64,000 bases of DNA from Dokdonella koreensis DS-123. GTDB taxonomy: Bacteria; Pseudomonadota; Gammaproteobacteria; Xanthomonadales; Rhodanobacteraceae. The stretch's first letter is position 1. Each line of letters starts with the position of its first letter. The DNA lies in assembly GCF_001632775.1 (NCBI RefSeq), contig NZ_CP015249.1:4320686-4384685 (forward strand), given 5' to 3'. A program made the translations under genes and the position numbers. Shown in pieces: positions 23,904-43,549 of this stretch. Below the pieces are notes generated by a model. That model made no database searches. It was not told the DNA's origin and worked only from the letters and a program-made list of their open reading frames with translations.

Positions 23904-24493
23904 GGCGCCTCCAGGATGTGGGCCAGGCGCTCGCGCGCCTGCGCCCACAGCCATTGCACGGTGCGCAACGGAATCGCGGCGGCTTCGGCGGTCTCGGTCT
24001 CGGTCATGCCGGCGAAAAAACGGCACTCGACGACGCGCACCATGTTCCCGTTCTCGACGGCGAGGCGCGTCAGCGCCTGGTCGAGGGCGACGAAACGGTT
24101 CGCTTCCTCGCCGATCTCCTGGTCGATCTGGTCCAGCTCGACGCGGCGCTGGTCGCCGCCGCGCTTGGCGGTGGCGCGTTCGCGGGCGTAGGCGCAGATC
24201 ACCTGGCGCATGATCCTGGCCGTCAAGGCGAAGAAATGCTGCCGGTTCTCCGGCACCGCATCGCCCGCATCGACGATGCGCAGGTACCACTCGTTGACCA
24301 GACCGGTGGTGTTGAGGGTCGGCATCGTCGCGCCCTGCGCCAGCTGATGCCGCGCCAGCCGCTTGATGTCGGCATAGGTCCGCCGCAACAGCCGCGCCCA
24401 GGCATCGCGCTCGCCGTCGCGGGCCTGGTCGAGCAGTCGGGTGATGTCTTCGGGAACGTCCACCAGCGGCGCGGGTCCGGCAACCGGCGCCAT
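23900..24493 (-). CDS. ECF sigma factor of the kinase-linked (ECF43-like) group
   Basis: A 197-residue RNA polymerase sigma factor with regions 2 and 4 only. Region 2 holds NTTGLVNEWYLRI followed by FFALTARIMRQVICAYAR; region 4 is ECRFFAGMTETETAEAAAI plus RTVQWLWAQARERLAHIL. The usual acidic DAED motif of region 2.2 is replaced by NTTG, with Thr62 and Thr63 in place of acidic residues. In the ECF43 group such threonines are phosphorylated by the neighbouring kinase to switch the factor on. No anti-sigma gene is present. The ATG at 24493 is preferred over a GTG at 24595. Confidence 0.88.
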   Translation of the reverse strand: MAPVAGPAPLVDVPEDITRLLDQARDGERDAWARLLRRTYADIKRLARHQLAQGATMPTLNTTGLVNEWYLRIVDAGDAVPENRQHFFALTARIMRQVICAYARERATAKRGGDQRRVELDQIDQEIGEEANRFVALDQALTRLAVENGNMVRVVECRFFAGMTETETAEAAAIPLRTVQWLWAQARERLAHILEAP

Positions 24494-32049: not shown

Positions 32050-33114
32050 ATGCTGCAGCCCGGACCGATCCTGTTGCGCATTCTCCTGGCCACCGCCGCC
32101 GTGGCCGGCGCGGGCTTGGCGCTGCTGGCGCCGCTGCCGCTGCCGGCGCAGCAGTCGCGCGACCAGCTGGCCGACATGCTGCCGGCGACCAACCTCTCCG
32201 GCGAGGGAAAGCCGATCGGCGACGCCCCGCCGGGATTCGCCTACGCCGCGGTGGCGCACAATCCCGCCGCGCCGGATGCCAAGGCGGTCGGCGAGCAAGT
32301 CTGCACCGCCTGCCATGCGCTCGAGAACGATCATTTCAGCCACACGCTGCACGCGCTCGGCCTGCGCGCCGCCGCGGCCGCCACGCCCGGCGCGCCCGTC
32401 TGCGAGGCCTGCCACGGCCCGGGTTCCGCGCATGCGGCGCAGCCCCCCGAGAAGGGACTGATCATCGGCTTCACCCACGGCGCCGGCACGCCGATCGAGG
32501 TGCAGACGCAGACTTGCCTGGCCTGCCACCAGGGCGGCGCCCGCGACCACTGGCTCGGCTCGGTGCACCAGCGCAACGGGCTGTCCTGCAGCGACTGCCA
32601 CAATCCGATGGGACGGGTCTCGCCGGAAGGCTCGATGGCGCGCACGTCGATCAACGAAACCTGTGCGCAATGCCACCGCGACATCCGCGCCCAGTTCGAC
32701 CGGCGCTCGCACATGCCGCTGCCCGAAGGGCAGATGACCTGCGCCGACTGCCACAACCCGCACGGCTCGCTGACCAATCCGCTGCTGAAGACCAACAGCG
32801 TCAACGAGACCTGCTACCAGTGCCACGCCGAGAAGCGCGGCCCGTTCCTGTTCGAGCACGCCCCGGTCCGCGGCAGCTGCCTCAACTGCCACACGCCGCA
32901 CGGATCGAACCAGCTGAGCCTGCTGGTGGCGCCGGTGCCGTTCCTGTGCCAGCAGTGCCATTCGCACCTGCGCCATCCCAACGACCTGCAGACGCCGCAG
33001 TCGCTCGCCGGCGGACCGCATCCGGACGAGCGGATCATGGGACGCGGCTGCATCACCTGCCACGCGCAGATCCACGGATCGAACAACCCCTCCGGTCCAC
33101 GGCTGCACAAGTAG
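32050..33114 (+). CDS. Decaheme c-type cytochrome, DmsE/MtrA family
   Basis: A periplasmic electron-transfer protein of 354 residues with exactly ten CxxCH haem sites: CTACH (85-89), CEACH, CLACH, CSDCH, CAQCH, CADCH, CYQCH, CLNCH, CQQCH and CITCH (334-338). A hydrophobic signal segment (about 8-32) precedes them. Ten haems at this length, with repeats such as NETCxQCH and CxDCHNPxG, are the MtrA/DmsE/PioA pattern: a haem wire inside an outer-membrane barrel. The barrel gene follows after 10 bp. The direction of electron flow, outward (metal or DMSO reduction) or inward (Fe(II) oxidation), cannot be read from this protein. Confidence 0.95.
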   Translation: MLQPGPILLRILLATAAVAGAGLALLAPLPLPAQQSRDQLADMLPATNLSGEGKPIGDAPPGFAYAAVAHNPAAPDAKAVGEQVCTACHALENDHFSHTLHALGLRAAAAATPGAPVCEACHGPGSAHAAQPPEKGLIIGFTHGAGTPIEVQTQTCLACHQGGARDHWLGSVHQRNGLSCSDCHNPMGRVSPEGSMARTSINETCAQCHRDIRAQFDRRSHMPLPEGQMTCADCHNPHGSLTNPLLKTNSVNETCYQCHAEKRGPFLFEHAPVRGSCLNCHTPHGSNQLSLLVAPVPFLCQQCHSHLRHPNDLQTPQSLAGGPHPDERIMGRGCITCHAQIHGSNNPSGPRLHK

Positions 33115-33124
33115 GAGGCCTGCC

Positions 33125-35692
33125 ATGCGCATCCCGTCGCGGAACCCGACCTGCTGCCTCGCCCTGGCGGTGGCCGCCGCCCTGTCCGCGCCCGCCGCGG
33201 CCGACAGCGGCGTCGGGGTGGACCTGTGGATCGCCAACAAGTTCGACCCCAGCGCCGGCGCCGCCGCCGATCCGAAGGATCCGCGCGGCACCACATGGCT
33301 GCGCCCCGGCGAGAAGCGCACGCCGACCGGCACGCTGTACGCCTGTCCGGCCGAGCCGCCGGTGCTCGACGGCAGCGGTGCCTGGCAGCAGTACGACTCC
33401 TCGATCCAGTTCGGCTACTTCACCATCGGCGGCGACGACAAGAGCGCGCTGTGGCGCCGCTACGCCGGCTGGGACGACGGCTTCGTCCTCGGCCTGCTGG
33501 AACTGCACTTCGTGCGACCGTCCGACGGCAGCTACATCGACGTGCGCGCCAGCCACATCAGCGAGCACGACCAGTACATCAAGGGCACGGTCGGCCGCGC
33601 CGGCAGCTACAAGATCGAGGCGTACGCCCGCTCGACGCAGAACGTGGTCAGCGGCAACGCACGCTCGATCTGGGACGGCGTGGGCAGCAACAACCTGACC
33701 CTCGCCGGCGGCCTGGTTCCCGGCGCCAGCACCCCGGCCCAGGTCGCGGCCGTGTCCGCCGCCGCGCCCGAGCGCGTGCTGCAGGTCAACCGCGACAAGC
33801 AGGGCCTCGGGATCAACTACTTCTTCGATCCGCGCTGGACCGGCTACTTCAACGTCACCGACGAGCAGCGCGAGGGCACGCGGCCGTTCGGCGGACCGTT
33901 CTTCTTCAACTTCGCGTTCGCCGACAACGGCGGCATCTTCGAGACGATCCGGCCGATCGACGACAGCACCGTCAACACCAATGCCGGCATCCGCTTCGTC
34001 GGCAACCGCTGGCGCATGGACATCGGCTACTCGGGGTCGTTCTACCGCGACCGCTACCGCAGCTTCACCTACGAGCAGCCCTATGCGCTGTGGAACGTGG
34101 TGACCGGCCCGGGCGTACGCAGTTCGCAGCTGACCCAGGGCCAGTTCTCGACCGAGCCCGACAACGACTACCACAGCCTGCGCGCCACCCTGAGCCGCAG
34201 CCTGCCGATGAACGGCCAGTTCTCGGTCACCGCCTCGGGCGCGAGCATGCGCCAGGACGACGATCTGCTGGCGCCGATCAATTGCACGGGCACCTTCGGC
34301 ATCGACCTCGTCGGCAACGGCCAGGTCGGCCCGACCAACCCGTTCCTGTACGCGTGCGCCGACTGGAACACGCCGGCGTCGCTGTCGCGCCGGTCGGCCG
34401 ACATGCGCATCGACACCACCCTGGTCGACGCGCGCGTCGTGCTGCAGCCGACCGCCGACCTGACCTGGCGCGGCGGCCTGCGCTTCTATCGCGAGGACTA
34501 CCGCAACACCTACCTCGCCTACAACCCGCTGACCGGCGAATACGGCTACGTCGCCGAGAACGGCTCGCAGGGAACCGTCGTGCCGGGCGAGGTCGGCATC
34601 TGGAACCCGGTCACCGGGGCGTCGATCCTGACGCGCGTGATGAGCCTGCCGCTCGATACGCAGACGACCGAGGCCAACATCGGGGCGGACTGGCGGCTGT
34701 CGGCACGCGACAGCCTGGGCGCCACCTTCAGCTTCACGCGCAACGAGCCTTCGCACCGCGAACGCAGCCAGGTCGACGACAGCACGGTCAAGCTCAACTG
34801 GACCAACCGCGCACTCGGCTGGCTGACGCTGCGCGCCAACTACGTCTACCTGCGCCGGTCCGGTGACCGCTACGACTACGATCCCTATGCGTTCACGTTC
34901 TCCGAGCACCTGCCCGGCTTCGTGGAACCGGAAGGCGGCCTGCCGGCGCACACGGTCGATGCGCTGCGCAAGTACGACATGGCCAGCCGCGACCAGAACA
35001 AGATCGACCTGATGGCCACCGTGATGCCGCGCGAGGACATGAGCTTCACCGCCTCGCTGCGCGGCGACTGGAACGACTACGACGCGAAGCTGGGCCGGCA
35101 GAAGCTCGACACGCTCGGCGCGACGCTGCAATGGGAATGGCAGCCCTCACCGCGCACCAACGCCAGCCTGTTCTACGCCTACGACCGGTCCAAGCTCGGC
35201 ATCGCCAACGTCAACGAGGACGGCGCGGCGGCACAGACCGATCCGGTGCTCGGCGGCGCCACCTATCCCGAAGCCGGCCGCTGGTGGGTCGACGACAAAC
35301 AGCGCAACCACAGCATGGGCGCGGTCTTCGTGCACGACTTCCGCCGGTTCAAGGTGGACGCCGCCTGGAACTGGCTGTGGTCGCGCGGGCTGACCCACTA
35401 CCGCTTCGCGTCGGAACTGGCGCTGGCCTGGCCGGACGTGGCCGCCTACACCGGCAACGCCTTCCCGACGATGAAGTACAAGCTCAACTCGCTGACGCTG
35501 GGCGTGACGATGCCGATCAACGAGCAGGTGTCGCTGCGCCTGTTCGACTACTACGAGCGGGGCCGCGTCAGCGACTGGCACTACCTCGGCTTCGACGAGG
35601 CCCGGGTCATCGACCATCGCGTCTACAGCGACGGCGGCCCGGAGGACTACGACGCGAACCTGGTCGGCCTGCTGCTGACGATCAGACTGTGA
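33125..35692 (+). CDS. MtrB/PioB-family decaheme-associated outer-membrane porin
   Basis: An 855-residue exported beta-barrel with signal peptide ending PAAAD. After a 110-residue N-terminal segment, the protein is made of alternating aromatic/polar strands typical of a large barrel, ending in VGLLLTIRL. The family blocks are LRFYREDYRNTYLAYN, SREQNKIDL-like sequence (SRDQNKIDLMATVMP) and YDRSKLGIANVNEDG. MtrB/PioB barrels sheath the decaheme cytochrome and carry electrons through the outer membrane. The gene sits between the decaheme (10 bp) and diheme (7 bp) cytochrome genes, so one operon is certain in practice. The ATG at 33125 has GGAGG upstream. Confidence 0.93.
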   Translation: MRIPSRNPTCCLALAVAAALSAPAAADSGVGVDLWIANKFDPSAGAAADPKDPRGTTWLRPGEKRTPTGTLYACPAEPPVLDGSGAWQQYDSSIQFGYFTIGGDDKSALWRRYAGWDDGFVLGLLELHFVRPSDGSYIDVRASHISEHDQYIKGTVGRAGSYKIEAYARSTQNVVSGNARSIWDGVGSNNLTLAGGLVPGASTPAQVAAVSAAAPERVLQVNRDKQGLGINYFFDPRWTGYFNVTDEQREGTRPFGGPFFFNFAFADNGGIFETIRPIDDSTVNTNAGIRFVGNRWRMDIGYSGSFYRDRYRSFTYEQPYALWNVVTGPGVRSSQLTQGQFSTEPDNDYHSLRATLSRSLPMNGQFSVTASGASMRQDDDLLAPINCTGTFGIDLVGNGQVGPTNPFLYACADWNTPASLSRRSADMRIDTTLVDARVVLQPTADLTWRGGLRFYREDYRNTYLAYNPLTGEYGYVAENGSQGTVVPGEVGIWNPVTGASILTRVMSLPLDTQTTEANIGADWRLSARDSLGATFSFTRNEPSHRERSQVDDSTVKLNWTNRALGWLTLRANYVYLRRSGDRYDYDPYAFTFSEHLPGFVEPEGGLPAHTVDALRKYDMASRDQNKIDLMATVMPREDMSFTASLRGDWNDYDAKLGRQKLDTLGATLQWEWQPSPRTNASLFYAYDRSKLGIANVNEDGAAAQTDPVLGGATYPEAGRWWVDDKQRNHSMGAVFVHDFRRFKVDAAWNWLWSRGLTHYRFASELALAWPDVAAYTGNAFPTMKYKLNSLTLGVTMPINEQVSLRLFDYYERGRVSDWHYLGFDEARVIDHRVYSDGGPEDYDANLVGLLLTIRL

Positions 35693-35699
35693 GGGCGCG

Positions 35700-36413
35700 A
35701 TGAAGACGCTGGGACTGTTCGCATTCCAAGGCCTCGCGCTGGCCCTGCTCGGCAGCGCTCCGGCGGCCCGTGCGGCCGACTACGTCGACCTGCGCCGGAT
35801 CGAGCCGGTGCAGGGCGATGCCGCCGCGGGCGCCGAGAAGGCCGCCACCTTGTGCTTCACCTGCCACGGCGCGAACGGCGTCTCGCCGGTACCGCTGTTC
35901 CCGAACCTGGCCGGGCAGCATGCCGACTATCTCTACCAGGAACTGCTGCGCTACAAGAGCGGAACCCTGCCCGAGTCGCCGATGACGGCGCTGGTGCAGC
36001 CGCTCGAGGATGCCGACCTGCGCAACCTCGCCGTGCACTACGCCGGCCTGGCGCTGGACGTACCGCCACCCGCGGCGGCAGCCGAGCCGGCGATCCTCGA
36101 CCGCGGCGGCACGCTGTACCGGGACGGCGACCCGGCGCGCGGCGTACCCCCGTGCCAGGGTTGCCACGGCGCCGATGCCAAGGGCCATGTACTGGCCGCG
36201 TCCGAGGCCTCCCGCGATACGCAGTACCGGACCTATCCGCTGCTCTACGGCCAGCAGGCGCAGTACGTGGCGACCCGGCTGCGCGACTATCGCAGCGGCA
36301 AGCTGGTGCACACCAGCAACGATTTCATCATGCGCGACGTCGCCAGCCGGCTGGACGACGCCTCGATCGACGCGATCGCCGCCTGGCTGGCGGCGCTGCC
36401 GGCCCCGCGCTGA
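35700..36413 (+). CDS. Diheme cytochrome c4-type electron carrier
   Basis: A periplasmic 237-residue cytochrome with signal peptide ending ARAAD and two CxxCH sites, CFTCH (52-56) and CQGCH (152-156), each in a class I domain. FPNLAGQHADYLYQELLRYKSG and YPLLYGQQAQYVATRLRDYRSG are the matching c4-type motifs of the two halves, showing internal duplication. Methionine-containing late segments (ESPMTALVQ; NDFIMRDVA) may give the axial ligands. It is the last gene of the conduit operon and probably links the decaheme protein to the inner-membrane chain. Confidence 0.92.
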   Translation: MKTLGLFAFQGLALALLGSAPAARAADYVDLRRIEPVQGDAAAGAEKAATLCFTCHGANGVSPVPLFPNLAGQHADYLYQELLRYKSGTLPESPMTALVQPLEDADLRNLAVHYAGLALDVPPPAAAAEPAILDRGGTLYRDGDPARGVPPCQGCHGADAKGHVLAASEASRDTQYRTYPLLYGQQAQYVATRLRDYRSGKLVHTSNDFIMRDVASRLDDASIDAIAAWLAALPAPR

Positions 36414-36449: not shown

Positions 36450-37232
36450 TCAGGAGCGCAGGCCGGTCCCGGTGCGCAACAGCCACAGGCCGAGTGCGGT
36501 CAGCCCCACCGTGAAACCGATCATCAGCGCGTAGGCGATGCCGAGCGGCACGTCGCTCTCGCCGAGCAGGCCGTAGCGGAACGCGTTGACCATGTAGAAG
36601 ATCGGGTTGGCGTACGTGAGCGTCTGCGCCCATTCCGGCAGCAGCTTGACCGAGTAGAACACGCCGCCGAGGTAGGTCAGCGGGGTCAGGATGAAGGTCG
36701 GAACGATCGCGATGTCGTCGAACTTCTTGGCGTAGACCGCATTGACGAAGCCGGCCAGCGAGAAGATCGTCGCGCCGAGCACGACGGTCGAGAGCGTGAC
36801 CAGCGGGTGCGGCATGCGCACGTGCGTGAACAGCATCGCGATGCCCAGCACGATCACGCCGACCATCAGGCCGCGCACCACCGCGCCGACCACGTAGCCG
36901 GACAGGATCACGATGTTGGGCATCGGGCTGACCAGCAGCTCCTCGACGTGGCGGCCGAACTTGGCGCCGAAGAAGCTCGAGGAGATGTTGCCGTAGCTGT
37001 TCTGGATGATCGACATCATGACCAGGCCCGGCACGATGAAGTCCATGTAGTCGTGGCCGCCCATGTCGCCGATGCGGCTGCCGATCAGGCTGCCGAAGAT
37101 CAGGAAGTACAGCGTCATCGTGATCGCCGGCGGTACCAGGGTCTGCCCCCAGATGCGCAGGATGCGCATGACCTCGCGGCGCACGATCGTCAGGAAGGCG
37201 ACCAGGTTGGGATGCGTCGAGGGCGTGCTCAT
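36450..37232 (-). CDS. ABC-2 type exporter permease (YadH-like)
   Basis: A 260-residue inner-membrane permease with six hydrophobic helices and the ABC-2 signature around GGVFYSVKLLPEWAQTLTYANPIFYMVNAFRYG. PALITMTLYFLIFG-type and MDFIVPGLVMMSIIQNSYGN segments match the YadH group. The substrate is unknown; the group is often linked to lipid or cell-envelope export. The ATG at 37232 shares ATGA with the stop of the ATPase gene. The longer open frame is the shadow of that ATPase. Confidence 0.9.
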   Translation of the reverse strand: MSTPSTHPNLVAFLTIVRREVMRILRIWGQTLVPPAITMTLYFLIFGSLIGSRIGDMGGHDYMDFIVPGLVMMSIIQNSYGNISSSFFGAKFGRHVEELLVSPMPNIVILSGYVVGAVVRGLMVGVIVLGIAMLFTHVRMPHPLVTLSTVVLGATIFSLAGFVNAVYAKKFDDIAIVPTFILTPLTYLGGVFYSVKLLPEWAQTLTYANPIFYMVNAFRYGLLGESDVPLGIAYALMIGFTVGLTALGLWLLRTGTGLRS

Positions 37233-38164
37233 GCGGCGGCCTCGCGGTTTCCGGTGAGGCGCACGAACAGTTCCTCCAGGCGGTTGGACTTGGTGCGCAT
37301 CGAGCGCACGCGGATGCCGGCGGCATCGAGCGTCGCGAACACGCGGTTGAGGTCCATCGCCCTGGGCATTTCCAGGTCCAGCGTGTGGCCGTCCTCGGCC
37401 ACCAGCATGACGCCTTCGATCTCCGGCAGCCGGTCCGGCAGCGGGCCGTCGATGTCCAGGACGAAGCCTTCCACGTCGAGCTTGGCCAGCAATGCCTTCA
37501 TCGGCCCCTGCTCGATGATGCGGCCACCGTCGATGATCGCCAGGTTGCGGCACAGGCTCTCGGCTTCCTCGAGGTAGTGCGTCGTCAGGATCACGGTGGT
37601 GCCGGCCGCGTTGACCTCGCGCAGCGTGCGCCACATGCCGCGGCGGATCTCGATGTCGACGCCGGCGGTCGGCTCGTCGAGGATCAGGAGCCGCGGCCGC
37701 GTCATCATCGCGCGCGCGATCATCAGCCGCCGCTTCATGCCGCCGGAGAGGTTGCGCGACATCGTCTGCGCCTTGTCCCACAGCTGGGCGCGCTTGAGTT
37801 CCTGCTCGGCGCAGACGATCGCTTCGGCCCGCGGGATGCCGTAGAAGCCGGCGTAGTTGACGAGAATGTCGAACGGCTTCTCGAACAGGTTGAAGTTCAT
37901 CTCCTGTGGCACGAGGCCGATCATGCGCATCGCCGCGGCGCGCTGGGCGTGCAGGTCGACGCCGAAGACCCGCACCTCGCCGCTGGAGGCATTGACCAGC
38001 GAGCTGACGATGCCGATCAACGTGGATTTGCCGGCCCCGTTGGGGCCGAGGAGCGCGAAGAAATCGCCGGGCTGGACGCTCAGGGTCACGCCCTTGAGCG
38101 CCTCGACGCCGGTCGCATAGATCTTGCGCAGCTCGTGGAGTTCGAGCGCGGGCACGGTATTCAT
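37229..38164 (-). CDS. ABC exporter ATP-binding protein (YadG-like)
   Basis: A 311-residue ATPase energising the adjacent ABC-2 permease. Walker A is GPNGAGKST (about 39-47), the Q-loop lies in IGLVPQEMNFNLF, the signature is LSGGMKRRLMIARAM, Walker B is LLILDEPTAGVD and the switch His is in TTHYLEEAE. The last 90 residues form the extra domain of this subfamily, ending near RLEELFVRLTG. It is divergent from the flavoprotein gene. It overlaps the permease gene by 4 bases. Confidence 0.93.
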   Translation of the reverse strand: MNTVPALELHELRKIYATGVEALKGVTLSVQPGDFFALLGPNGAGKSTLIGIVSSLVNASSGEVRVFGVDLHAQRAAAMRMIGLVPQEMNFNLFEKPFDILVNYAGFYGIPRAEAIVCAEQELKRAQLWDKAQTMSRNLSGGMKRRLMIARAMMTRPRLLILDEPTAGVDIEIRRGMWRTLREVNAAGTTVILTTHYLEEAESLCRNLAIIDGGRIIEQGPMKALLAKLDVEGFVLDIDGPLPDRLPEIEGVMLVAEDGHTLDLEMPRAMDLNRVFATLDAAGIRVRSMRTKSNRLEELFVRLTGNREAAA

Positions 38165-39019: not shown

Positions 39020-40018
39020 TCAGTAGGTCACGGTCACGACGATGGTGTCGGTGTACAGGCCCGCGGCGCGCGGCGCCTGGGCCGGAACCCGGCCGTACAC
39101 GGTCAGGTTCTGCGTGGTGCCGGTGCCGGTCCCGGCCAGCGTGTCGATGCCCAGGCTGCTGCCCCAGCGCTGGCTGCGGGCGATGTCGCGATAGAGCTCG
39201 TAGGTGATCAGGCCACCGGCGCCGCTCATGCGCCGGGCGGTTCCCGACGCGTTCTGGCCGTTGCCCAGGCTCACCTGCCACGGCGCGCGATAGGTGCAGC
39301 GCAGGCTGATCGCCGAGGCGGCATCGTGGGCGACGCCGAGCAGCCCGTCCACCGGGCCGAAATCGTGATCGGCAGCGCTGACCGTGCAGGCCGGCGCCAC
39401 GTTGGCGTTCGCCGTGAACGCGAACGTGCCGTTGTTGGCGGTGCCGCAGTCCGCCGGGTACGTGCCCAGGCTCAGCAATACCTCGTTGTAGCGGAACGAC
39501 AGCCGGGTGTGGATGCCGCTGAACGCGTTCGCGTAGCTGCCGATGCCGAGCCCGGTCTGTCCGGCCGGCACGCGCCCGTAGACGGTGGCCGAGCCGGTCC
39601 GGGTGGTGCCGACGCCGAGGATCGTGAAGCTCAGGTCGCGCTGCAGCGGCGGCGTCCCCGGCGTATCGATCGATCCCCAGGTCTGGCTGTGGCCGGCGTC
39701 GCGGTAGAGCTGGAAGGCCATGACGTCGCCGCTGGTGTTGGTCATCTGCCGCGGCGCGATGCCGGTGCCCTGCGCGCCGGTGCCGATGCTCAGGCACAAC
39801 CGCGCATAGACGCCGTAGAGGTTGCCGAGCAGTCCGCTGCTGTAGGTGCACTGGTAGTTGATCGTGGCGGTGGCGTCGACCAGGCCGCCGAGCGGGTCCA
39901 CGGCGCCGAAGCTGATGTCGGTCATCGTGGCGCTGCAGGTCGTCACCGCCTGTGCGCCGCCGCCGAGCACGGCCGCCAGCAGCGCCGCCGCTGTGCGCAC
40001 CGCGTGGCTCATCGGCAT
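39020..40018 (-). CDS. Csu-type pilus tip adhesin with two SCPU domains
   Basis: A 332-residue exported protein with signal peptide ending AQAVT and two spore-coat-U (SCPU) pilin domains (about 26-180 and 195-332). Each has the SCPU pattern: a starting Cys, DxxFG (TDISFGAVDPLG; HDFGPVDGLLG), an inner Cys, and an ending YxxRVPAxQ...Y segment. The last strand is TDTIVVTVTY. In the Csu system the two-domain subunit CsuE caps the fibre and binds surfaces. It is the last gene of the pilus operon; its start (40018 or 40012) overlaps the usher stop. Confidence 0.88.
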   Translation of the reverse strand: MPMSHAVRTAAALLAAVLGGGAQAVTTCSATMTDISFGAVDPLGGLVDATATINYQCTYSSGLLGNLYGVYARLCLSIGTGAQGTGIAPRQMTNTSGDVMAFQLYRDAGHSQTWGSIDTPGTPPLQRDLSFTILGVGTTRTGSATVYGRVPAGQTGLGIGSYANAFSGIHTRLSFRYNEVLLSLGTYPADCGTANNGTFAFTANANVAPACTVSAADHDFGPVDGLLGVAHDAASAISLRCTYRAPWQVSLGNGQNASGTARRMSGAGGLITYELYRDIARSQRWGSSLGIDTLAGTGTGTTQNLTVYGRVPAQAPRAAGLYTDTIVVTVTY

Positions 40019-42327
40019 GTCAGCGGTCCCGGCGTGGTGGCCGCCGGCCGCGCCGGCCGCGCGAATCGCACACGGCAGGGGCCTGCGGGCCGTTCGATCT
40101 CCAGCACGTTGTCGTCCTCCAGGTTCTCGATGTAGGCCAGGCCGTCGTAGCCGACCACGGCGGGCGGATGTCCCTGCCGGCGGATGCGGCTTCCTGCCGG
40201 CAGCGGCTTGCCGGCCGTGTCGACCAGGGTCAGCGTGATACCGTCCCGCGCGGCGATGTCGAAACGCACATGGGTGCCGGTGCCGCGCATCGGCACCACG
40301 CTGTGCTCGACGACGTCGGCCCGCAGGTCCGCCGCCAGGTTCAGCGGCGAGATCGCGATGCGGTTGCGCTGATAGGCGTTGAGCGGGGTCACCAGCAGTA
40401 CGCCATCGGTATCGGTGCGGCCGATCGGGCGGTTCTCGAGCAGCACCGGCACGTCGCCGACGCCGGCGGTGGACACGACCGCGAAGGCATCGTCCACGCG
40501 CCGCGTCGCGAACAGGTGCCCGGCGGCCCAGACCAGGGCGCCGTTCATTCCGGAATAAGCCATCCGCTCGTCACCGGACGCCTGCGCACCGGCCAGCAGC
40601 TGCGCCCAGGGTCCACGCCATCCGAGTTCGGCCAGGCCACCGGCATCGCCGTCGCCACCGCGCGCCTGGGCGCGCCAGCCGGTGCCGCCGTCGCCGGGTA
40701 TCGGGCGCGCCACCTCGACCGTCAGCGTGTCGGTCCCGCGCTCGCGCTGCAGCGAGGCACCGAGCTGCACCGGGCCGGCCAGGCTCATCGTGAAGCCGAG
40801 GAAGACGCCACGGTCGCGGGCATCCTCCAGGTTGCGGTTGAGGTTGACATGCAGCGCCGCCCGCCTCGCGATCGAACGCGACCACGACGCGCTGACGTAG
40901 CGCGACGCCGGCTCGTCCGGGTAGCGCAGGTGGGCGAAGACCAGCCCGAGGTTGCCGATGCGGCCGGCGTCGAGGCCGAGCAACGCCCGTGCACTGGCCC
41001 GCGGCGGCGGCCGGCCGAAATCGCTGGCGATGTCGCGGTAGGCGCCCTGCGTACGACTGCCCTGCACGCCCACCTGGAGCCGGCGCTGCCGCAGCAGGTA
41101 GCCGATGCTGGTCAGCGATCCGCTCGCCCCGGCATGGCGGCTGCGCGCATGCGCGGCCGAGAGCACGCCGGCCATGCCGAGCAGGAGATGGGCACCGCCG
41201 CCGGCCAGCGCCGTGTCGCCGCCCGCCTCGGCATGCGTCTCGACGGTGAGGCGATCGGTCAGGCCGTGGCGCCACAGGCCGCTGGCGACCGGATCGCCGG
41301 CATAGTCGAACGAGGCCTGGCCGCGGTTGCGCCGCACGAAGCCGAGTTCCGCCGAATAGTCACTGAGGCCGCGCTGCAACAGCAGCGGCGTGGCATAGAA
41401 CGGAAAGTCGAACGTGGTCACGCGTCCGAGCGCATCGGTCAGCACGATCTGCGCGAGTCCGGCGCCCGATACCGGCGGCGCCGTGTTCAGCTGGAACGGT
41501 CCGGCCGTCAGCTGGCCGCTGTACTGGCGCATGCCGTCGATGTACAGCTCGATCGCCGAGGGCGCGGCCGCTTCGCCGTAGAACGCCGGCAACGGCATCG
41601 TCAGGCGATACGGCTGGAGGCTGAAGTCGCGTGCCAGCTGGATGCCGCCGACGTAGGTCGGCCGAGCCCATTCCGGCCCGCGCGTCAGCAGGTCGCCGAC
41701 GGTGAGCGTCAGCATCCGCTCCGGGAACGCCTTCGACCAGAACGTGTCCAGCCGCACCGAACCGCGGCGCCCGTGGCCGTCCGCGACGCCGGCCTGCACG
41801 ATGCCCGAATGGCTCAGCACGCCGGCGGCGCCGAACGCCCGCAGCTCGCCATAGCCGTTGACGGCCCGGGCGCCCTCGGATGCGTACGAGGCATACAGGT
41901 CGTAGTTCAGCAGCAGGCCCGGCGATGCCGTGGCCGCCGGCACGTCATCGACCGGCGCGCCGAGCACGGCCGGCGCGATGTCCAGCAGCGACACCGGTGC
42001 ATCGATCGTCACGCGCTGGCGCGCCGCATCGTAGTCGATCCGCACGCCGGGCATGCCGGCCAGGTCGATCCAGGTATCCCCCGCCGTCGGACCGGCGCGG
42101 AACCGCAGGCCCCGCAACGTGTCGGCGCCGGCCCACAGGCGCCCGTCCCGCAACTCGAACACCGCCAGGCCCGGCTGCGCCGTGCCGTTGAGGATCACGT
42201 CCAGGTACAACGTGGCGGCGCCGGACACGGCCGGGTCCGCCGCCGCGCTGGTGCCGACCGGCAGCCAGGCGAAGGCCAGGCTAGCGATCGTCGCCAGCGT
42301 GCGTGATCGTACGTTCCAGCCACTCAC
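40009..42327 (-). CDS. Archaic (Csu-type) outer-membrane usher
   Basis: The pore that secretes and assembles pilus subunits: 772 residues, near the CsuD length. A signal peptide ends TSAAADP. It has an N-terminal domain (LYLDVILNGTAQPGLAVFEL), a barrel with YGELRAFGAAGVLSHSG and GGIQLARDFSLQPYRLTMPL, a plug containing SAIELYIDGMRQYSGQLTAGPF, and C-terminal domains ending PLPAGSRIRRQGHPPAVVGYDG. The GTG start at 42327 lies 47 bases inside the chaperone gene. No ATG is available nearby and the signal peptide begins here, so the overlap is probably real. Confidence 0.9.
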   Translation of the reverse strand: MSGWNVRSRTLATIASLAFAWLPVGTSAAADPAVSGAATLYLDVILNGTAQPGLAVFELRDGRLWAGADTLRGLRFRAGPTAGDTWIDLAGMPGVRIDYDAARQRVTIDAPVSLLDIAPAVLGAPVDDVPAATASPGLLLNYDLYASYASEGARAVNGYGELRAFGAAGVLSHSGIVQAGVADGHGRRGSVRLDTFWSKAFPERMLTLTVGDLLTRGPEWARPTYVGGIQLARDFSLQPYRLTMPLPAFYGEAAAPSAIELYIDGMRQYSGQLTAGPFQLNTAPPVSGAGLAQIVLTDALGRVTTFDFPFYATPLLLQRGLSDYSAELGFVRRNRGQASFDYAGDPVASGLWRHGLTDRLTVETHAEAGGDTALAGGGAHLLLGMAGVLSAAHARSRHAGASGSLTSIGYLLRQRRLQVGVQGSRTQGAYRDIASDFGRPPPRASARALLGLDAGRIGNLGLVFAHLRYPDEPASRYVSASWSRSIARRAALHVNLNRNLEDARDRGVFLGFTMSLAGPVQLGASLQRERGTDTLTVEVARPIPGDGGTGWRAQARGGDGDAGGLAELGWRGPWAQLLAGAQASGDERMAYSGMNGALVWAAGHLFATRRVDDAFAVVSTAGVGDVPVLLENRPIGRTDTDGVLLVTPLNAYQRNRIAISPLNLAADLRADVVEHSVVPMRGTGTHVRFDIAARDGITLTLVDTAGKPLPAGSRIRRQGHPPAVVGYDGLAYIENLEDDNVLEIERPAGPCRVRFARPARPAATTPGPLTCR

Positions 42328-43027
42328 CGTTGACCCTCGCACGCACGCGCACCGTCGCCGGCACCGGACCGTCGACCGGCAACCGCCAGCGCATCCGCGA
42401 TCCGGCCAGCACGTAGCCGAGCAGGCCGCGGCTGAGCACGATCTTCGCGCCCGACGCATCCTCCAGTTCGACCTCGCTCAGTTGCGCGCGCGCCGACCCG
42501 GTATTGACCACGTCCAACGCCGGCGGCGCCGCCACCCATCGCCAGGCCAGTTGCGGTTGCGCCGGTCCGCCGGCTTCCGGCGCGATGAAGACCGGAATCG
42601 AATAGCGCAACAGGAACTGCACGCCCGGTCCCGCGGCGGCTTCGCCCGGCGCGTCGCCGCCGCCGGGCAGCTCGTCGACGATCACCCGGAAGCTCTGCTC
42701 GCCCGCCGCGCGCGCCAGGCCGGGGGCACGGACGATGCGCACCAGCTGGCGCCCGCCCGCCGGCACGTCGAGCATCGGCGGGCTGGCGAGGAGATCACCC
42801 GACGCGACCAGCCGGTCGTCCTGATCGACCTGGGTCCAGCGGAACACGCGCACCTGTGCCTGCAGCGCGCGCGGTCCGGTATTGGAGAGCCATAGCAGCG
42901 TGCTGGCGTCCTCACGGCCGATCTCGAGCATGATCGGCGTGACCTGCAGGCCGGCGGCCGGCACGGCCGGCACGCCGGCCAGCGCAGCGGCGGCCAGAAC
43001 GAAGCGCGCGAGCAGTCTGCGGTGCAT
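42281..43027 (-). CDS. Csu-type periplasmic pilus chaperone
   Basis: A 248-residue PapD-like periplasmic chaperone that donates strands to pilin subunits. A signal peptide ends near PAAGLQ. Domain 1 has the family opening LQVTPIMLEIG and the edge-strand pattern QVRVFRWTQVDQDDRLVASGDLLASPP; GGRQLVRIVRAP holds the conserved Arg. FLLRYSIPVFI begins domain 2. The spelling resembles CsuC of Acinetobacter. The gene lies between pilin (12-bp gap) and usher. Confidence 0.9.
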   Translation of the reverse strand: MHRRLLARFVLAAAALAGVPAVPAAGLQVTPIMLEIGREDASTLLWLSNTGPRALQAQVRVFRWTQVDQDDRLVASGDLLASPPMLDVPAGGRQLVRIVRAPGLARAAGEQSFRVIVDELPGGGDAPGEAAAGPGVQFLLRYSIPVFIAPEAGGPAQPQLAWRWVAAPPALDVVNTGSARAQLSEVELEDASGAKIVLSRGLLGYVLAGSRMRWRLPVDGPVPATVRVRARVNGEWLERTITHAGDDR

Positions 43028-43039
43028 CCCTGCGATCGC

Positions 43040-43549
43040 TCAGTAGGTCACCGTGACCGCGATCGTGTCGGTGTAGGCGCCGGCATTGGCATTGGCGCTC
43101 GGCACCAGGCCGTAGACGCTGGCGGCCTGCGCACTGCCGGTGCCGGTGGCGGCGAACGTGTCGGTGCCGATGGTCTCGCCCCAGGGCGTGGTGTGGCCGA
43201 CGTCCTGGTAGAGCTGGTAGGGGACGAAATGCGAGGCACCGTCGCTCATCCGCCGTGTCGCGACGTCGCCCGGCGTCGCGGCGTGCAGGCCGGCACCGAG
43301 GCCGACCGTATACGGCGAGCCCGGCGTGCAGGTGACGGTGATCGTCGAAAGACCGGTGATCGCCGTAGCCAGCGAAGCGTGCGCGCCGAAGTCCAGATCG
43401 GTCGGTGCCGTGGTGGTCACGTCACAGGCCTTCTGCACCGTCATGCGTACCTGGAACGAACTGGTCACGGTATCCGCACCGGCAATTCCTGAATAACCCA
43501 GCGCCAATGCGAGGCCCGCCATGATCGAGGTTCTACTGAATATGTTCAT
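43040..43549 (-). CDS. Csu-type major pilin (single SCPU domain)
   Basis: A 169-residue exported pilin with signal peptide ending GIAGAD. The SCPU domain has FQVRMTVQKACDVTT, LDFGAHASLATAITGLSTITVTC and a final ASVYGLVPSANANAGAYTDTIAVTVTY-type donor-accepting end. The two cysteines fit the usual intrachain disulfide. It is the CsuA/B-like shaft subunit and the first gene of a four-gene operon (pilin, chaperone, usher, tip). Classical csu operons have two more minor subunits, absent here. AAGGGAC precedes the ATG, and a sigma-54 site lies 46-62 bases upstream. Confidence 0.9.
   Translation of the reverse strand: MNIFSRTSIMAGLALALGYSGIAGADTVTSSFQVRMTVQKACDVTTTAPTDLDFGAHASLATAITGLSTITVTCTPGSPYTVGLGAGLHAATPGDVATRRMSDGASHFVPYQLYQDVGHTTPWGETIGTDTFAATGTGSAQAASVYGLVPSANANAGAYTDTIAVTVTY

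Follow-up and report, generated by a model that had tools for sequence, protein, structure and literature searches.

The locus

The window analysed here, a 64,000-nucleotide stretch of the genome of Dokdonella koreensis DS-123, carries on its forward strand a tandem trio of genes for a decahaem cytochrome, an MtrB/PioB-type barrel and a dihaem cytochrome c4, separated by gaps of 10 and 7 bp. The initial annotation of this DNA had listed exactly ten CxxCH sites, an 855-residue barrel, a diheme c4 and the same gaps, all of which are reproduced here; its Xanthomonad-type host is a member of the Lysobacterales. The features of the locus are as follows:

32050..33114, + strand: mtrA-type decahaem c-type cytochrome, 354 aa, exactly 10 CxxCH
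33125..35692, + strand: mtrB/pioB-type outer-membrane barrel, 855 aa, no CxxCH
34268..34381, + strand: barrel loop insert, residues about 382-419, with Cys387 and Cys411, from profile alignment
35700..36413, + strand: dihaem cytochrome c4, 237 aa, 2 CxxCH, His-Met ligation by alignment
35787..35795, + strand: D-L-R motif, c4 residues 30-32, ahead of the first c4 domain, from c4 alignment

The decahaem protein starts with a signal-like stretch devoid of a lipobox, and its first CxxCH is located at residue 85. A scan of the trio locus for promoters and terminators yielded matches at chance level. Downstream of the trio, an ABC exporter pair (36450-38164, -) and a fimbrial chaperone-usher-like cluster (39020-43549, -) are encoded on the opposite strand. 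ABC-exporter-like genes also lie downstream in four other loci (same genus and three other genera), and genes similar to the fimbrial cluster are found beyond the trio in loci L040 and L033 (L numbers denote the individual loci inspected). The end of a sigma-factor-like gene, recognised by eye from its translation, is situated at 24001-24493 (-), ~7.5 kb upstream of the trio.

Assignment of the three proteins

The decahaem protein matches chain A of PDB entry 6r2q at 8.9e-57, identifying it as MtrA-type, and in the alignment with 6r2q_A the 10 proximal His columns are all shared, as are 7 additional ones. It also scores 253.1 bits against the NCBIfam model TIGR03508 ('DmsE family'; cut-off 192.2). 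The barrel matches Pfam MtrB_PioB (PF11854) at 1.3e-95 as well as PDB 6r2q_B. An MtrA-related decahaem protein adjoining an MtrB/PioB barrel, the hallmark of MtrAB/PioAB/MtoAB-type gene pairs, is thus present. The third protein aligns with PDB 6q2u (4.4e-30) and 1etp (2.6e-28), and in its two haem domains, His-Met ligands and sequence relationship it is a cytochrome c4. A PdsA-type dihaem identity was rejected (41.7 bits against a PdsA cut-off of 330), and the protein is distant in sequence from the dihaem proteins that accompany the conduit at three MtrCAB-type loci.

Conservation and distribution of the trio

Owing to antisense ORFs in high-GC DNA, gene neighbourhoods were re-derived with a codon-usage caller. 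In a survey of the three-gene order, which the initial annotation had proposed, the succession mtrA-mtrB-c4 was found in 37 of 40 wide loci of the host's family; the remaining three (L065-L067) represent another type, two of which (L065, L066) carry a monohaem and a NapC-like tetrahaem gene and no c4. Among the named loci, the best 80 of 233 MtrA relatives, the order occurs in 77, and the three with an incomplete trio (L116, L130, L150) are contig ends. The 40-locus and 80-locus counts (L031-L070 and L085-L164) are not independent, because they stem partly from the same genomes. Exactly 10 CxxCH are present in every named decahaem frame (80/80, again the best 80 of 233 relatives), and counts of 10 and 2 recur in the trios among the 40 wide family loci. 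The conserved order together with the haem counts excludes a chance arrangement. The trio is not a stripped-down one-off: it forms the centre of a lineage-specific version of a known conduit that is found across the order.

Presence in the family is patchy: an MtrB_PioB match at E <= 1e-3 was obtained in 90 of 233 genomes, 87 of them above the cut-off, and among the 30 family loci listed, c4 follows the barrel in 22 and is missing from this position in 8. Of 398 genomes sampled from the order, 77 gave a barrel match at E <= 1e-10. Fourteen barrel loci outside the family were inspected; three strong matches (L237-L239) harbour the trio, and at the 11 weaker ones (L226-L236) no c4 match was seen. 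Named trio hosts include Dokdonella, Tahibacter, Rudaea, Rhodanobacter, Dyella, Frateuria and Fulvimonas as well as Pseudoxanthomonas, Stenotrophomonas, Luteimonas and Lysobacter, and some trio-bearing MAGs have other labels, e.g. Burkholderiales and Rhodospirillales. The MtrA of the same-genus locus L040 is 88% identical to that of the host. A search of a plasmid collection returned, for MtrB and MtrA alike, a single distant record from Photobacterium.

Among the papers listed by literature searches, mostly outside subscription journals, we recognised none on a decahaem-barrel-c4 operon in Lysobacterales, and nothing useful was found on Dokdonella in connection with iron or cathodes. Published work mentions MtoAB-like and Cyc2-like proteins in Rhodanobacter (PMC11366258) and reports Cyc2 in a Dyella-like MAG (PMC7767972).

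One genus (the host, L040, L054, L055 and L066) contains at least three versions of the trio plus the Mto/CymA type: a bare trio, one with ECF, subtilase and cupredoxin-like genes, and one with TetR-like and azurin genes. In L060 (6349-15174) and L061 (4683-14027) the trio is doubled in tandem (A-B-c4-A-B-c4), followed in L060 by HiPIP and CcmF-like genes.

Phylogenetic placement of MtrA and MtrB

Unrooted trees were calculated for both conduit proteins. The MtrA tree comprises 71 rows, with L217, L220 and L240 left out for their long branches; a 64-row tree including these three recovered the same trio lineage. For MtrB, a quick tree of 69 rows with SH-aLRT support only was built, leaving out L216 (wrong ORF), L217, L220, L240 and L268. 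Reference rows were labelled by their neighbours: MtrC/OmcA-like decahaem genes for MtrCAB, a 4Fe-4S ferredoxin-like gene for DmsEFAB, a NapC-like gene for Mto and a HiPIP-like gene for Pio. L225 is labelled DmsEFAB, and no ferredoxin-like gene was seen beside it; the HiPIP of the Pio-type locus L266 was confirmed with Pfam (25.9 bits versus 22).

The 27 trio rows of the 71-row MtrA tree are set apart from the remaining rows by a branch with a support of 100/99. Together with five c4-less rows of the same order, six Pio-type rows and four Pio-order rows, they make up a Pio side that is split with 100/99 from the MtrCAB, DmsEFAB, Mto/CymA and nine-haem types. The MtrB tree displays the same split (SH-aLRT 100). 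The tree placement asked for in the initial annotation thus puts both proteins in one lineage on the Pio side and not with DmsE. Labels are imperfect as clades in the MtrA tree, MtrCAB, DmsEFAB and PioABC requiring 2 changes each and Mto/CymA 3, and L210, labelled MtrCAB, falls among DmsEFAB rows.

Grouping the trio lineage with the MtrCAB/DmsE clade was rejected at an AU p of 1.3e-4 and grouping it with the Mto clade at 2.8e-4, both for sets that are whole clades chosen after the tree was seen. AU tests by label groups gave p values of 7e-68 (DmsEFAB) and 8e-7 (Mto/CymA), which also force label groups apart because not all labels are clades. Since trees and AU test place the lineage elsewhere, the NCBIfam name 'DmsE family' is, as judged from sequence comparison, misleading for the decahaem protein.

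In the MtrA tree as well as in the MtrB tree, L055 falls among Lysobacteraceae-type rows and L054 clusters with L031/L050, which suggests that whole trio cassettes have been exchanged horizontally.

The sister clade of the same order (L226-L230) encodes a decahaem protein and a barrel, with no c4 listed nearby; some conduits on this side of the tree thus do without it. Around L227-L230, no other CxxCH gene was present among the genes listed, and L226 has a 1137-aa protein with two CxxCH upstream. A separate conduit type, in which a decahaem protein and a barrel are joined by a nine-CxxCH cytochrome of ~660-720 aa, forms its own MtrA and MtrB clades (L215, L216, L218, L219, L221-L224, L242, L244) and mostly has a monohaem cytochrome upstream; the part of L242 that was read did not show the nine-haem gene.

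Signatures of the lineage

Profile alignment, carried out with Pio-type barrels as well, visualized several loop inserts in the trio barrel relative to Shewanella-like barrels. The insert bearing Cys387 and Cys411 marks the lineage: the Cys pair is present in 27/27 trio barrels and in 0/46 other barrels, does not occur in any of six Pio-type barrels and is found at 79/79 named loci whose barrel is readable there, that of L130 being cut off. This loop may shape the exposed outer end of the conduit.

The Met ligands of the c4 are Met95 and Met211, and both are kept in all 41 aligned rows (40 module c4s and PDB 1etp). Because both are retained, the trio c4 should be a high-potential carrier. A (D/E)xR motif precedes the glycine motif of the first c4 domain by 4-10 residues in 76 of 77 named c4s; the 77th (L088) has DLR ahead of a diverged glycine motif. 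The motif is missing from the housekeeping c4 of the host genome (L278), the one housekeeping protein with which the module c4s were compared. This c4 is 38% identical to that of the trio, and its gene adjoins a dsbA-like gene.

Carriers and regulators near the trio

A further high-potential carrier is encoded within 1.5 kb on the same strand at 30 of the 80 named loci (best 80 of 233). By tblastn thresholds, azurin was counted near the trio at 14 of the 80, HiPIP at 11 and another cupredoxin at 11; the HiPIP gene of L155, situated upstream, is a tblastn match only. Profile searches identified azurin as the curated equivalog in 3/3 cases tested and confirmed HiPIP with Pfam in 5/5 trio loci tested, and 4/5 cupredoxin genes tested were above the Pfam cut-off, L054 being just under it. 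Of the four confirmed cupredoxin genes, that of L031 is 3.6 kb upstream.

Regulators are present within 3 kb at 59/80 named loci, namely LysR (24), ECF sigma factor with subtilase (19) and TetR-like (16). The ECF sigma factor and S8 subtilase genes are located up- or downstream of the trio, e.g. in L044, L051 and L057, and a zinc-finger anti-sigma factor was also present in the ECF/subtilase loci looked at. In the host, the slice 24001-45000 of the window contains none of these carriers or regulators above the thresholds. Noisy clustering of neighbouring ORFs revealed no substrate-specific enzyme conserved with the trio.

The initial annotation had assigned to c4 the place of the inner carrier. 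It is supported as the fixed third component, but c4 is not always alone, since relatives add HiPIP, azurin or another cupredoxin.

Host genome and comparison with known systems

The host genome, a single contig of 4,446,619 bases, contains one MtrB_PioB match only. No MtrC/OmcA match (TIGR03507) was found genome-wide at E <= 0.1, and the paired-CxxCH model PF09699 retrieved MtrA as its only match at E <= 0.01; both results speak against membership in the MtrCAB group. HiPIP gave no match at E <= 0.01, and NapC is present beside napA only. The five molybdopterin frames correspond to NapA, formate dehydrogenase alpha, NuoG, formate dehydrogenase-N alpha and one PhsA-like enzyme, none scoring as DmsA above the cut-off. 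The reading as an MtrAB/PioAB-type conduit without an extracellular cytochrome therefore stands, as does the statement that no MtrC/OmcA, HiPIP or DMSO reductase gene adjoins the trio, which holds locally and in the genome-wide searches; the MtrC and CymA searches suggested at the outset returned just the NapC beside napA. Oxidases of both the aa3 (CtaD) and the cbb3 (CcoN) type are encoded. The formate dehydrogenase-N alpha gene (L083 2614-5358, -) contains an in-frame TGA, a probable selenocysteine codon. The 951-aa molybdopterin enzyme at L084 3741-6593 (+) has its best match, below the cut-off, in the thiosulfate reductase PhsA.

The closest known system is PioABC of Rhodopseudomonas and Rhodomicrobium. 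Like the trio, it combines a decahaem protein and a barrel without an extracellular cytochrome; Pio-type loci, so labelled by a HiPIP-like neighbour, share the side of the trio in both trees, MtrA and MtrB, and in some relatives a HiPIP gene adjoins the trio too. In contrast to PioABC, the trio has c4 instead of, or besides, PioC, the host lacks an adjoining HiPIP gene, and the trio barrels carry the Cys-pair loop that the six Pio-type barrels lack. The host, unlike the bearers of PioABC, is presumably not a phototroph. With its first haem at residue 85, the trio protein also does not have the long N-terminal extension of PioA, ~200 aa according to PMC6831781.

A decahaem protein and a barrel also make up MtoAB(CD) of Sideroxydans and relatives, for which a role in Fe(II) oxidation has been proposed, but this system belongs to a different clade (AU p 2.8e-4). 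The Mto-type loci of the same family (L065, L066) possess a monohaem and a tetrahaem NapC/CymA-like gene in place of c4. Membership of the trio in MtoABCD was rejected, given that clade result, the confinement of NapC to napA and the lack of a CymA/MtoC-type tetrahaem gene in the cluster. MtoD is described in PMC13390432 as a high-potential protein (+155 mV) proposed to feed an oxidase.

The rus chain of Acidithiobacillus ferrooxidans, in which electrons pass an outer-membrane conduit, c4 and a copper protein to an oxidase, is a functional analogy (PMC10654088). There, however, Cyc2 is a fused porin-cytochrome and not an MtrAB pair, and oxidase genes lie within the rus operon, whereas none are found beside the trio.

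MtrCAB loci with a dihaem shuttle (L213, L220) resemble the trio in combining conduit genes with a dihaem periplasmic cytochrome, but they contain MtrC-like genes, and the dihaem protein is not a close relative of c4. We take the dihaem proteins of these two loci to be of PdsA type. DmsEFAB of Shewanella has the NCBIfam subfamily label in common with the trio; membership is contradicted by the AU test and by the reductase genes, of which none were found.

Proposed electron path

MtrAB-type pairs carry electrons across the outer membrane. On the basis of the above results, we consider it somewhat probable that the trio takes up extracellular electrons into c4 and passes them on to an oxidase without a quinone step of the CymA/NapC type. 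From homology to 6r2q, the decahaem MtrA-type protein would reside inside the MtrB/PioB-type barrel, creating a haem wire that spans the outer membrane. The outer haems would be reduced directly, without an MtrC-type cap, by a donor outside the cell, of which Fe(II) or a reduced mineral surface is the most likely; the inner end of the wire would hand electrons to the dihaem His-Met cytochrome c4, and c4 would pass them to the cbb3 or aa3 cytochrome c oxidase, bypassing any CymA/NapC-type protein. In relatives, azurin, another cupredoxin or HiPIP may act as a second high-potential carrier. We infer complex formation, substrate and direction of flow, inward flow appearing the likelier direction. 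Published precedents are the need for pioABC in phototrophic Fe(II) oxidation (PMC6831781) and the At. ferrooxidans chain of Cyc2, rusticyanin, the c4 Cyc1 and aa3 (PMC10654088).

A more far-reaching version, which we put forward tentatively and rate as somewhat less than an even chance, is that common aerobic organotrophs of the Lysobacterales, Dokdonella, Dyella and Stenotrophomonas among them, exchange horizontally a dedicated uptake cassette made of a Pio-side MtrAB, the Cys-pair loop and a specialised c4, connected quinone-free to oxidases and existing in azurin, cupredoxin and HiPIP versions. Such a cassette would parallel the Acidithiobacillus rus chain at neutral pH, and ordinary soil bacteria would draw additional energy from the oxidation of minerals or Fe(II).

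If electron uptake is correct, it would not be a trait of specialist iron oxidisers but a widespread accessory one of ordinary bacteria from soil, weathering rock and wastewater, and it would take a route around the quinone pool. As a guide to function, the database label 'DmsE family' serves the whole lineage poorly; the lineage can be found by simple markers: the barrel Cys pair, the c4 D/E-x-R motif and azurin/HiPIP neighbours. The complete host genome makes the model directly testable.

Weighing the alternatives

Most trio hosts are known as organotrophs, a point against uptake. So are the ability of MtrAB-type wires to run both ways and the fact that sequence alone does not give the direction (PMC8805035, PMC10734462), as well as an isolated Rhodanobacter of culture KS for which a failure to oxidise Fe(II) on its own is cited (PMC11366258). 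The c4-less sister clade and the patchy presence in the family (90 of 233 genomes) also count against it. One alternative is outward flow from bc1 via c4 and MtrAB to a high-potential extracellular acceptor, e.g. Mn(IV) oxide at scarce O2; the conduit is reversible in principle (PMC8805035), and the MtrCAB loci L213 and L220 of other bacteria also pair a conduit with a dihaem carrier. Yet the dihaem partners of MtrCAB-type loci are far from c4, the host genome has no match to the MtrC/OmcA model, and both MtrA and MtrB are on the Pio side of their trees. Moreover, the established potentials of c4, azurin and HiPIP are too positive for the reduction of Fe(III) oxides. We regard outward flow as unlikely. 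Also improbable, and a little more so, is uptake from extracellular organic reductants such as humics or phenolics, or a balancing of redox state at the cell surface, in place of Fe(II) respiration. The hosts, mostly organotrophs of soil, plants and wastewater, would fit such a role, as would regulators that vary by lineage (LysR 24, ECF 19, TetR-like 16 of 80), but the noisy neighbourhood clustering brought up no conserved substrate-specific enzyme, and the Pio precedent is Fe(II).

Hardly credible is a role of the DmsEFAB type, in which DMSO or a comparable acceptor is respired outside the cell. It draws on the TIGR03508 score above the cut-off, against which stand the rejected MtrCAB/DmsE-clade grouping (AU p 1.3e-4) and the five molybdopterin frames of the host, with no DmsA above the cut-off and the L084 enzyme left without a name. 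DmsE clustering accompanied by dmsAB elsewhere, named in the initial annotation as what would overturn its reading, was not seen, and from these sequence comparisons the DmsEFAB reading appears largely refuted. Nearly as doubtful is a decaying or unused remnant: the patchy presence in the family speaks for it, but exactly 10 CxxCH in all 80 named decahaem frames (best 80 of 233), the two invariant Met ligands of c4 and the tight spacing of the three genes argue against it.
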